Shown in pieces: positions 52,002 to 56,418 of a stretch of DNA of 64,000 nt (position 1 is the first letter of the stretch; every line of letters starts with the position of its first letter). A model generated the notes under the pieces. It searched no databases, was not told the DNA's origin, and saw nothing but the letters and a program-made list of their open reading frames with translations. A program made the translations under genes and the position numbers. This stretch comes from Chloroflexota bacterium (GTDB lineage Bacteria; Chloroflexota; Dehalococcoidia; UBA2979), in the NCBI GenBank assembly GCA_003228125.1, contig QGNP01000002.1, positions 1 through 64,000 on the forward strand. The letters are read 5' to 3'.

Positions 52002-53567
52002 TTATTTAGAGAATAACTCACGTAAATCATTTTTCAAAACTTTTCCCATATGATTCTTAGGTAACTCATCTACCCATTCATAACTAGCTGGTGATTTATA
52101 TGAAGCTAATTTATTTTTTACAAACACAGTTAGTTCATCATAATTTGGTTTCTTACCAGATGAGTTTACTACGATTGCCTTAACCACTTCGCCCCATTCA
52201 TTGTCCTCAACTCCTATTACAGCTGCTTCAGAAATATCTGAATGTTCTTCTAAAACTTGTTCAATTTCTGCAGGTGCAATGTTTTCACCACCTCTAATAA
52301 TCATATCTTTAATTCTACCAGTGATAAATAAATAATTTTCCTTATCTAATCGGCCGACATCACCTGTATGCAACCATCCGTCTTTAATTGCATCAACAGT
52401 TTCGTCATCCCTGCCTTTATACCCTTTCATGATTCTTTCACCTCTAATACAAATTTCTCCATTCTCACCAGCATGAAGAATCTTGCCAGAATGATCAAGG
52501 ATACCAATTTCAATATCTGGCATTGGCTTTCCTACACTTCTTAATCGAACCCACTTTGTTTTATTTTCTTCTACATTGCCATCAATTCTATGATCATCTG
52601 GTCCAAGAAAAGTCATAGAGCCAGTTGCTTCAGTTTGGCCATATGCATTCATTAAACCAACGTCTGCTTTGTCAGGTGCAAATAATTCTACAGCATCCTT
52701 AACAACATCATAAGGCATAGGAGCAGCTCCGTAAGTAATTAACTTCAGATCAGAAAAATCTCTATCTTTAAAATTTTCAACTTCCATAATTCTTTTTAAC
52801 ATAGTTGGTACAACAAAGGCATGCGTTACATGATTATTCTCAACAGCATCCAGCCATTCATCAGGACTAAATCCATCTAAAAGCACTAGCTGTCTACCAG
52901 AAAAAATTGCACTCATAAGTGTAGTAGCCCCAGCAATATGATAAAAGCCAACACTAACCAAAATTACCTCTTGATTGGAAACAGGATCAGCAGGCGATTG
53001 AGTATTAACCACTAATGCAGTTAATGCTTTATAAGAAAGAATTACTCCCTTAGGAAGGCTAGTAGTGCCAGATGTATATATGATTAAAGTTGCATCTTCA
53101 TCATCTATTTCTGTGTAAATTGGTAAATCGACTCCTTTATCAGCTAAATTCTTATAAGAATTATAATTTTCTGCTTCAAAATCTACTGTAATTAAATGCT
53201 TAATAGATGGTAAATTATTTCTAATTGATTCATAAACGCTTAAGTACCTTTCACCTACAAAAAGCACTGAAACATCTGCCGCAGAAATCATGTATTCTAA
53301 TTCTTCAGGCTTTGATCTAAAATTTAAAGGAACAAATGTAGCACCGAGCATAGCTGTTGCATAATAAAGCTCGACCATCTCTATGCAATTAACTGTCATA
53401 ACTCCTACATTTTGACCCTTTTTAACATCTAATAGACTTAAAGAGTTTGCCATCTTATTAACTCTAGATTGTAATTGAGCATAGCTTACTTTTTCATTTT
53501 TTGTAGCTAGAGCAATGCGTTCTGGGACAATTGCGGCACTAATAGTTAAAAATTCTGCAGTATTCAT
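52002..53567 (-). CDS. Long/medium-chain acyl-CoA synthetase
   Basis: 521 residues of the ANL superfamily: LIIYTSGTTSLPKGVIL, YGQTEATGSMTFLG, GWLHTGDVGRLDKENYLFITGR with KDMIIRGGENIAPAEIE, and the late catalytic Lys in LPKNHMGKVLKNDL. The GGENIAPAEIE version is typical of fatty-acid and malonyl-type ligases. It activates carboxylic acids to CoA esters. Located 78 bases upstream (genome order) of the EMO-etf unit and 42 bases after the Rieske-like gene, all on the minus strand. Confidence 0.9.
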   Translation of the reverse strand: MNTAEFLTISAAIVPERIALATKNEKVSYAQLQSRVNKMANSLSLLDVKKGQNVGVMTVNCIEMVELYYATAMLGATFVPLNFRSKPEELEYMISAADVSVLFVGERYLSVYESIRNNLPSIKHLITVDFEAENYNSYKNLADKGVDLPIYTEIDDEDATLIIYTSGTTSLPKGVILSYKALTALVVNTQSPADPVSNQEVILVSVGFYHIAGATTLMSAIFSGRQLVLLDGFSPDEWLDAVENNHVTHAFVVPTMLKRIMEVENFKDRDFSDLKLITYGAAPMPYDVVKDAVELFAPDKADVGLMNAYGQTEATGSMTFLGPDDHRIDGNVEENKTKWVRLRSVGKPMPDIEIGILDHSGKILHAGENGEICIRGERIMKGYKGRDDETVDAIKDGWLHTGDVGRLDKENYLFITGRIKDMIIRGGENIAPAEIEQVLEEHSDISEAAVIGVEDNEWGEVVKAIVVNSSGKKPNYDELTVFVKNKLASYKSPASYEWVDELPKNHMGKVLKNDLRELFSK

Positions 53568-53609: not shown

Positions 53610-54020
53610 TTAATTTATCAATTCTACTATTACTTTCTGATCATTTCCAGAGCTTTTTATTTTAACAAATAATGTTTTTAAAGGAACTTTATTACCCATT
53701 AAATTATTTCCATTGATATCCCAAGCATTTTGACAGTTATCAAAAAAAATGTTATCTAAAGAAAATGGCTTAAATTTTATATCTTCAACAGGCCTTTGAG
53801 CAAAAAAAGATACATTGCATTCATTATTAAATGAAGAAGATAAAGCTCTTAAATTTCCATTTTTCATACCTATTAAATAAAAATTTTCATTTTCAAAAAA
53901 AACTACTTGCCCAATTGAAAAAGAGTGCAATTCGCCTACATAAAAATCTCGAATCTGAAGTTTAGGCGGATTTAAATATCCATATACAACTGCAAATAGT
54001 CCAAAAAATGTGACTAACAA
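53610..54020 (-). CDS. Membrane-anchored degenerate Rieske-like protein
   Basis: 136 residues if the TTG at 54020 starts it; the frame is open without ATG or GTG back to a TGA near 54067, and an ATT at about 54062 with AAGGA upstream is another possible start. One N-terminal membrane span is followed by beta-strands that resemble Rieske ferredoxins: FYLIGMKNGNLRALSSSF, then FDNCQNAWDINGNNLMG, where Rieske proteins have CPCHGSxFDxxG. The Cys/His ligands are mostly lost (His to Gln, first pair replaced), so a [2Fe-2S] cluster is unlikely. Function unknown. Confidence 0.45.
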   Translation of the reverse strand: MLVTFFGLFAVVYGYLNPPKLQIRDFYVGELHSFSIGQVVFFENENFYLIGMKNGNLRALSSSFNNECNVSFFAQRPVEDIKFKPFSLDNIFFDNCQNAWDINGNNLMGNKVPLKTLFVKIKSSGNDQKVIVELIN

Positions 54021-54083: not shown

Positions 54084-54737
54084 CTATCTATGAAGTTGCA
54101 TGTACATATTTTTTAAAGTTCTTAAATTGTTTACATCAAAATTTAATAACATACTGCACCATTCATCTACTTCATTCAAAATATTATCTTTTTCAATCAA
54201 TTTAGCAATAAGACCAAAATCATTTAAGCGTAATGCTGATAATGATTCGCCCAAAAAAGCAATCTTGTATGCATCGCTACTTGGCATTTTTTTTATAATT
54301 AGTTGAGTCCCCCCTGCAGCAGGCATATAACCAATTTTTGGTTCTGGTAAAGCAAATTGACTTCTTAGTGTAGAAAAAATCCAATCAGATGCTAGAGCAA
54401 TTTCTGCTCCAGCTCCATAAGCAATGCCATCGACGACTGAAAGAACTGGAACATCAATATAATTCAAAGCTTTCCATACATCTCGTTCAATCCTAGCTTT
54501 TTTACTAGCAATAATTGAACCTGAAGTACCAAAATCATTAATATCTGCTCCAGAAGAAAAACAATTATCTACTGATGAAATAAAGACTAAGCCATTAATT
54601 TCTTTGTCTAAATTAATTAATTCTAAGGCTTCCCATAATACATCCCTCATATATAAATTTATAGCATTTTTTTTATTAGGACGATTAAATGTTACAATTA
54701 AAGAATTATATCTTTTTGATAAAGTAATTTCAGGCAT
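54084..54737 (-). CDS. Enoyl-CoA hydratase/isomerase-family protein (short)
   Basis: 217 residues from the ATG at 54737 (AAAGG eleven bases upstream), which avoids overlap with the preceding gene; the open frame extends to 54779. Crotonase motifs: TFNRPNKKNAINLYMRD, NCFSSGADINDFGTSG, VDGIAYGAGAEIALASDW, and PEPKIGYMPAAGGTQLIIKK. It is about 40 residues shorter than usual at the C-terminus, lacking part of the trimerisation helices. Probably partner of the crotonase just upstream. Confidence 0.85.
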   Translation of the reverse strand: MPEITLSKRYNSLIVTFNRPNKKNAINLYMRDVLWEALELINLDKEINGLVFISSVDNCFSSGADINDFGTSGSIIASKKARIERDVWKALNYIDVPVLSVVDGIAYGAGAEIALASDWIFSTLRSQFALPEPKIGYMPAAGGTQLIIKKMPSSDAYKIAFLGESLSALRLNDFGLIAKLIEKDNILNEVDEWCSMLLNFDVNNLRTLKNMYMQLHR

Positions 54738-54741
54738 TTTT

Positions 54742-55503
54742 TTATTTACCTTTAAATTTTGGAGATTTTTTATTAACAAATGAACTAATTCCTTCTACAA
54801 AATCATCTGTATCCTGAAGAATAAGCGTCCGATCATGTTCGGCCTTTAGCCCTGAAACCAAATTTAAACCAATCCCATTCTTTGAAGATTCTTTAATTAA
54901 ACGTAATGCAAGTGGAGCATTGGATATAATTTTTTTTACAAACAGAATAGTTTTTTTGTAAACTTCATCAGGCTCAAAAACTTCTGATACTAATCCAAAT
55001 TTATATGCATCTTGGGCATTAATTTTTATTGAAAATAACAAAATTTGTAAAGCTGCAGTTTGGTTAATGCACATAGGTAATCTTTCAATTGCCCCACCAA
55101 TTGGAATTTTTCCTTCAGATGATTCCGGCAAACATGCCAGTAGATCAGAACTTCCAATCCTAATGTCACATGCCAGGGCAATTTCAAAGCCAGAAGAAAA
55201 ACTTTTGCCCTTCATAATAAATATAGTAGGAATTTTTATTGCCATAATTGAATCAAAGGATACATCAGGAGTAAAAGATGGCTGTTCATAATGATTTAAA
55301 ATATTTTCATCCCAACCAATTCCACTATTTTGTAAAGCACTTAAAAAAATAACCGCTGAACAGCGGTTATTTTTTTTAATTTCATTGCAAACATCATTTA
55401 ATTCAATAAGAAATAACTTCGAGAATTTATCATCATGAAGCTTATATCTTACTACAGCATATTTGTCATAATAAATTAGATTTATAAATTTTTTTTCAGT
55501 CAT
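54742..55503 (-). CDS. Enoyl-CoA hydratase/isomerase-family protein (divergent)
   Basis: 253 residues. Crotonase fold recognisable from IKIPTIFIMKGKSFSSGFEIALACDIRIG, with a catalytic-region ESSEGKIPIGGAIERLP. The N-terminal substrate loop (SALQNSGIGWDENILNH) departs from the usual FSAGxDL, so catalytic ability is uncertain. It lies four bases before the next crotonase. A terminator-like palindrome is embedded at 55343-55376, within the codons for KKNNRCSAVIFL. Confidence 0.75.
   Translation of the reverse strand: MTEKKFINLIYYDKYAVVRYKLHDDKFSKLFLIELNDVCNEIKKNNRCSAVIFLSALQNSGIGWDENILNHYEQPSFTPDVSFDSIMAIKIPTIFIMKGKSFSSGFEIALACDIRIGSSDLLACLPESSEGKIPIGGAIERLPMCINQTAALQILLFSIKINAQDAYKFGLVSEVFEPDEVYKKTILFVKKIISNAPLALRLIKESSKNGIGLNLVSGLKAEHDRTLILQDTDDFVEGISSFVNKKSPKFKGK
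55343..55376. repeat. Terminator-like near-palindrome inside a crotonase gene
   Basis: 16-base arms around a two-base AA spacer: an A-run, then AACCGCTG, AA, CAGCGGTT, then a T-run. In RNA from either strand it would form a G+C-rich stem of about ten pairs with a run of U after it, the form of a bidirectional intrinsic terminator. It lies inside the coding sequence of the gene at 54742-55503, near codons 42-53. Confidence 0.9.
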
Positions 55504-55618
55504 GTAAAAGCACTCACTTTATACTTTCATATTTTAATGATACATTCTATTTGAATATATTTTACAAAATTGTAAATATAAAGTATCAAAATAATTTCTT
55601 AATTAATTTAAGGCAATC

Positions 55619-56389
55619 ATGGAAATAGCAATTAATGGATGTTCAGCAATAATTTCTGGTGGAACAAAAGGTATCGGCCTTGCAATAGCAAAATCTCTTC
55701 TTGATGAAGGAGTAAATGTGACTGTCTTTAGCCGCAATATTAAAAACTTACAAATAGCTAAAAAATTAACAACAAGTGTCTCTACAAATGCACATGCGCA
55801 TTTTATTCAAGCAGATATCACAAAAAATACTGACAGAAAAAAAATTATATCTCAACATTTAAAAAAATTTTCATCTTTAGATTTTTTAATTAATAATGCT
55901 GGGCAATCTATTAAAAATGGTAGTTCAGAATCAAAATGGACCCAATCATTCAATGTCAATGTTACTGCACATGCATTATTGACTGAATTAGCTCTGCCAA
56001 GTTTAGAAAAATCAAAAAATGGAGCAAGTGTAGTTAATATTGCATCTATTTATGGGAGAGAATCAGGTGGCAATGCTCATTACAATGCTTCAAAAGCAGC
56101 TATGATTTCTTTTTCAAAAACAACATCTAATTTATTAATAGCTAAAGGAATTAGAGTGAACAGTGTCGCGCCTGGATCAATATTGTTTCCAAATGGTTCA
56201 TGGGACAAACGAGTAAAATCCGAACCAAAAAAAATGAAAGATTTTGTTAAACAAAATATTCCTGCAGGAAGATTTGGTACAGTTGAAGAAATTGCTAATG
56301 TAGTAACTTTTCTTTTGTCTCCAAAATCATCTTGGATTGTTGGAGCTACAATAAATGTAGATGGAGGGCAATCAAAATCAAATATTTGA
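55619..56389 (+). CDS. Short-chain dehydrogenase/reductase
   Basis: 256 residues. Rossmann motif ISGGTKGIGLAIAKSLL (13-29), NNAGQSIKNG, the catalytic Ser in VNIASIYGRESGGNAHYNAS, and the Tyr-x3-Lys in HYNASKAAMISF; GAxINVDGGQ closes the fold. It oxidises or reduces an alcohol/ketone with NAD(P). Divergent from the crotonase pair. The last 14 codons and the stop lie in a 70-bp perfect palindrome. Confidence 0.9.
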   Translation: MEIAINGCSAIISGGTKGIGLAIAKSLLDEGVNVTVFSRNIKNLQIAKKLTTSVSTNAHAHFIQADITKNTDRKKIISQHLKKFSSLDFLINNAGQSIKNGSSESKWTQSFNVNVTAHALLTELALPSLEKSKNGASVVNIASIYGRESGGNAHYNASKAAMISFSKTTSNLLIAKGIRVNSVAPGSILFPNGSWDKRVKSEPKKMKDFVKQNIPAGRFGTVEEIANVVTFLLSPKSSWIVGATINVDGGQSKSNI

Positions 56390-56418
56390 TTTTGATTGCC
56401 CTCCATCTACATTTATTG
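56349..56418. repeat. 70-bp perfect loopless palindrome across the end of the SDR gene
   Basis: Two exactly complementary 35-base arms (56349-56383 and 56384-56418) meet with no spacer; the arm contains AAATGTAGATGGAGGGCAAT. The left arm is coding and gives the conserved SDR end (NVDGGQ); the right arm is its inverted copy and carries the stop at 56387-56389. The mismatch at 56348/56419 marks the boundary. Confidence 0.97.

Follow-up and report, generated by a model that had tools for sequence, protein, structure and literature searches.

The palindrome at positions 55343-55376 of the window (the whole stretch of 64,000 nucleotides that was analysed) may be an intrinsic transcription terminator embedded in the coding frame of an operon's first gene and acting as an attenuator. 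We put the probability of this reading at a little under one half (about 0.48). The first-pass annotation had suggested an attenuator for a pair of crotonase genes. That suggestion gains from a sister species, which carries at the corresponding codons a hairpin of its own, different in sequence and followed by a U-tract, and from the position of the host gene, crotonase 1, at the head of a conserved set; it stands as a prediction. The host genome is that of an AT-rich Dehalococcoidia (Chloroflexota) bacterium, and the gene set is of the fatty-acid type. The features referred to below are as follows.

54742-55503, minus strand: crotonase 1 (enoyl-CoA hydratase/isomerase family, 253 aa; Pfam ECH_1, 1.1e-30), host of the palindrome and first gene of the set
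54084-54779, minus strand: crotonase 2, which overlaps the end of crotonase 1 and is 55% identical to its orthologue
53610-54020, minus strand: small protein of 136 aa with a TTG start in the ORF list, the conserved third gene of the set
52002-53567, minus strand: AMP-binding acyl-CoA synthetase, the set's fourth gene, with 81% identity to the orthologue
55504-55618, no strand assigned: intergenic stretch separating crotonase 1 from the divergent SDR gene, with a block AATAGAATGTATCATTAAAAT...TATAAAG common to the sister species
55343-55376, minus strand: terminator-like hairpin in crotonase 1, codons 43-54, consisting of an A-run, a GC core (ACCGCU-GUUC-AGCGGU) and a U-run
55343-55376, plus strand: the same palindrome in antisense reading, with a terminator score of 39.9, above the sense score; not conserved in the sister species

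The palindrome is contained wholly within the intact minus-strand reading frame of crotonase 1 and occurs once in the genome. Its plus-strand letters are AAAAAAATAACCGCTGAACAGCGGTTATTTTTTT. The arms are perfect, comprise 16 nt each with five G-C pairs, and enclose a non-palindromic centre of 2 nt, so that the ten pairs first ascribed to the stem were too few. An A-run on one side and a T-run on the other provide T-runs in both reading directions. The minimum free energy is -16.8 kcal/mol on the plus strand and -17.5 kcal/mol on the minus strand, and none of 200 dinucleotide shuffles was equally stable; the terminator-like palindrome noticed at this place is real. It covers nucleotides 128-161 of crotonase 1, or 17-21% of the gene length, and the codons involved are 43-54 rather than 42-53.

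The family search yielded a single further genome of the genus, a Dehalococcoidia MAG (JAQWMB010000021.1), which is the sister species of this text; a scan of genome contigs led to the same sister contig again. Synteny between the window and the sister is complete, and comprises three conserved genes, the SDR gene and then, divergently, crotonase 1, crotonase 2, the small protein and the acyl-CoA synthetase. The orthologue of crotonase 1 has 253 residues and aligns without gaps over residues 1-253, with 38% identity. The peptide encoded by the palindrome, KKNNRCSAVIFLS, aligns without a gap to NNHKHCLAVLFIS in the sister and likewise to the matching stretch in further members of the family. 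Judged from these alignments, the palindrome codons are part of an ordinary crotonase strand. The idea of an in-frame insertion is refuted by the gap-free alignment with the syntenic orthologue and the other family members; this alignment and the single copy also rule out a mobile palindrome of the Rickettsia type. A pseudogene or an untranslated N-terminus is ruled out as well by the intact 253-aa frames and the N-terminal residues conserved in both species.

At the homologous codons the sister DNA reads AAT CAT AAG CAC TGC TTG GCA GTG CTT TTT ATT, which contains the hairpin AAGCACTGC-TTG-GCAGTGCTT followed by TTT. Codon 48 pairs there with codon 50 (TGC:GCA) and codon 47 with codon 51 (CAC:GTG), whereas the window stem joins codon 47 to codon 50 (CGC:GCG), the right arm thus being displaced by one codon. 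As read from the two genomes, the stems have place and shape in common and differ in their base pairs, which is not simple compensatory conservation. With peptide and genome codon usage held fixed, 5 of 60000 synonymous versions folded as well as the window hairpin, and none of 60000 folded as well as that of the sister. The codons concerned are rare in both cases (CGC, 4%, and GCG, 5%, in the window; CAC, 15%, and GTG, 11%, in the sister). The window hairpin is produced by these rare codons and not by the peptide. Conservation of the peptide in relatives had been named as grounds for refuting the first reading, and it holds only in part: the frame is conserved together with roughly one residue in three, but the hairpin does not derive from the peptide. 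The codons of the U-tract encode a hydrophobic strand in the two species (AVIFL and AVLFI), and its T-richness is therefore partly protein-driven.

The U-tract of the sister is present in the sense direction only. The A-run of the window has no match there, and the orthologue contains no antisense terminator site with d of at least 15 (d being the terminator score described below). The bidirectional character attributed to the palindrome thus holds for the T-runs of the window but is not conserved. This bears on the possibility that the site is a bidirectional terminator that halts antisense transcripts ahead of the divergent SDR promoter. The score is higher in antisense than in sense, and about 240 nt further along in the antisense direction the SDR gene begins; yet the sister lacks the antisense site, and the ORF list shows nothing of 80 aa or more on the plus strand between 50000 and 55343. 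We regard this role as highly improbable.

Terminators were scored with a Carafa-type d in a scan for hairpins with U-tracts over both genomes; the scans of the window's genome took in all but about 4 kb. In the window gene the stem is GC-rich and directly followed by a U-tract, as in intrinsic terminators, and d reaches 30.3 at +134 in the sense direction, compared to 32.6 at +137 in the sister orthologue. With 30.3 in sense and 39.9 in antisense, the window site is among the top 14 sites of its genome. The only in-gene sense site with d of at least 30 in the 920 kb of coding DNA of the sister is the hairpin of the orthologue, and the window's genome has two, the focal one and C6:31615. The latter starts at most ten bases from the 5' end of an ORF, and the corresponding site of the sister, C18:87780, lies between genes. 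C6:31615 is therefore probably not in a gene, and the start of that ORF was probably called too far upstream. The two (C6:31615-31635 in the window's genome and C18:87780-87801 in the sister) form a near-identical conserved hairpin, GACGTGGG...CCCACGTC followed by T6.

The chance that a sister site falls within 10 nt on either side of the homologous place is about 2e-5 for the class of sense in-gene sites with d of at least 30, about 2e-4 when in-gene sites on both strands with d of at least 15 are counted, and about 1e-3 for the loosest class (any hairpin of 8 bp with 4 GC), all three estimates being somewhat weakened by the choice of thresholds and classes after the hairpin had been seen. 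They were built on real coding sequence. The rarity lies in the terminator shape and not in the long palindrome as such. The focal palindrome is alone among 42 alignable coding palindromes in having a strong hairpin match in its orthologue (z of -7.0, against a mean z of -0.10 for the orthologous fragments of the 42), and its arms are identical to the orthologue at 11 of 16 and 10 of 16 positions.

The hairpin could also serve the mRNA or its translation, by pausing the ribosome for N-terminal folding or as a processing or stabilising element, with a U-tract that merely reflects Phe, Leu and Ile codons. The stem is strong on the sense strand of both species, and a hydrophobic strand peptide yields T-rich codons in any case. 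Against such a role, a stem with an adjacent U-tract is precisely the combination that is rare genome-wide (one or two sense sites), and the two species have no conserved slippery heptamer, the A-run being missing in the sister. This explanation appears improbable. A frameshift site was ruled out on the same ground, since the A-run is not conserved.

A mutational origin deserves more weight. Template switching at imperfect inverted repeats during replication (quasipalindrome correction) may have perfected the palindrome, as at dozens of further sites in coding DNA, the terminator shape being incidental and the sister hairpin having arisen independently at a peptide prone to pairing; we consider this quite possible, if short of probable. 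Perfect inverted repeats are in clear excess over the expectation from synonymous shuffling. With arms of at least 12 nt, the genes of the window's genome hold 55-56 of them, where 4.6-6.1 were expected (about nine-fold), and with arms of at least 16 nt they hold 14-15, where 0.1 was expected. At arms of at least 12 nt, the sister has 22 in its genes (3.4 expected), and a genome of another genus (G021) has 11 (0.4 expected) in 381 kb. Loss of the SbcD hairpin nuclease or of exonuclease VII was ruled out as the cause of this excess, both genes being present. Further in-gene palindromes of the window's genome are found at C2:115409-115464, C9:19077-19124 and C1:97833-97872, and its in-gene arms measure 12-23 nt.

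Only one kilobase from the focal site, a perfect palindrome of 70 nt (56349-56418; arms of 35 nt, no spacer) extends across the SDR stop codon. The left arm consists of conserved coding sequence at the end of that gene and is present in the sister, where the inverted copy is absent; the palindrome has the look of a fold-back copy made recently. Matches to Rfam microRNAs were dismissed as chance hits on this neighbouring long palindrome, none of them at gathering score. Among individual cases, the gene C3:69704-70744 (nucleotides 785-820) shows most clearly an arm apparently rewritten to match its partner: one arm there is identical to the orthologue at 16 of 17 positions and the other at 7 of 17. 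The excess of in-gene inverted repeats and the fold-back at 56349-56418 point to template switching, which is suggested as the process behind the palindrome population as a whole.

For the focal site, the shift of one codon in register between the window and sister stems fits independent origins. However, the mean z over the 42 palindromes reveals no general hairpin tendency in orthologues, so recurrence is not the rule, and by-product palindromes are already included in the chance estimates. In addition, the asymmetry between arms is not significant across all palindromes (p = 0.16), and one-arm copying rests on single cases. Template switching could have produced the stem and selection could then have retained it; the two are compatible with each other.

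In the attenuator reading, RNA polymerase would reach the GC-rich stem and U-tract after about 130-160 nt of crotonase 1. A closely trailing ribosome would prevent stem formation, whereas a late start or a lag of translation would let the stem form, and a fraction of the transcripts would stop there. Termination would lower the expression of crotonase 1 and of all genes behind it. Should the polymerase of this lineage run ahead of the ribosomes, the site would instead be a constant brake. The site does lie early, at nucleotides 128-161 of the gene that heads a conserved set of four, and the four genes from crotonase 1 to the acyl-CoA synthetase presumably form one transcript. On this reading the site would act as a terminator under the control of translation and would be kept by selection.

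The intergenic region 55504-55618 is likely the promoter region, and its conserved block, AATAGAATGTATCATTAAAAT...TATAAAG, is likely a promoter or operator common to the divergent SDR gene. The block ends about 14 nt upstream of the crotonase ATG in the window and 17 nt upstream in the sister, and no Shine-Dalgarno-like sequence is evident ahead of crotonase 1; the leader is therefore likely to be very short. The site lacks the marks of a classical leader attenuator or a riboswitch: no antiterminator common to the two species was found, and no Rfam family at gathering score. A mutually exclusive antiterminator helix was absent from the sister and limited to 7 nt in the window, and at the palindrome itself no Rfam family reached its gathering score.

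The attenuator reading is limited by its foundation on two species. A hairpin is present in the one sister species with a changed register and is absent from the homologues of other genera of the family, where a comparable terminator site was found in none of three homologues of another genus. It also counts against this reading that the genome makes many long coding palindromes with no evident function, as do the displaced register of the sister stem, the lack of a shared antiterminator and the partly protein-driven T-richness of the U-tract.

Crotonase 1 diverges much faster (38% identity) than its neighbours (55-81%). The PE motif of the sister protein (L172 2937-3698) no longer has its Glu, with LLNVS in place of the LPESS of the window, and the catalytic role of crotonase 1 may be in the course of being lost or changed.

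Intrinsic terminators inside reading frames have been described in Escherichia coli for rsxC and narY, where a following ribosome suppresses termination and lagging translation raises it (PMC5021804). The window site resembles them in having a stem and a U-tract inside coding sequence. It differs in that its host is the first gene of a set and the site lies early (codons 43-54); moreover, the rsxC and narY terminators were shown in vitro and partly in vivo, whereas the window site is predicted. The E. coli transcriptome also contains ORF-internal and 5' UTR 3' ends, some of which arise by intrinsic termination (aceK int) and sometimes give small RNAs (PMC7815308). The window site, predicted from its sequence, would likewise give a premature 3' end within a gene. 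A structure conserved at fixed codons with changed pairing, as in the window and sister pair, is not described in the accessible part of that report.

As to palindromes in genes, nematomorph mitochondria carry perfect inverted repeats in functional genes, with both arms coding, for which template switching was proposed (PMC6649704). Those reach 284 bp and, in the portion of the paper at hand, are not described as terminator-shaped; the in-gene arms of the window's genome are far shorter. The same source mentions selfish palindromic elements in genes of Rickettsia, which belong to a family of repeats with in-frame insertion. The window palindrome likewise lies within a reading frame but is a single copy and gap-free against its homologues. 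Ladoukakis and Eyre-Walker, as reported in PMC4060949, found short inverted repeats in excess in bacterial genes and ascribed them to sequence-directed mutagenesis. That excess was small and concerned 6-9 bp, whereas in the window's genome it is about nine-fold at arms of at least 12 nt and more than 100-fold at arms of at least 16 nt.

A more specific account joins these elements: a translation-gated attenuator in the frame of a fast-evolving first gene, whose structure would be kept while protein and pairing turn over, and whose stems would be supplied by palindrome-making mutation. We hold it to be rather unlikely in this complete form. To our knowledge, attenuation has hardly been studied in uncultured Chloroflexota. 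If the site does not terminate, palindrome-biased mutation can mimic a regulator, which bears on the prediction of in-gene terminators in such genomes. If it does terminate, it would be a rare case of an attenuator and a protein strand written on the same bases, with a structure that outlasts its sequence.
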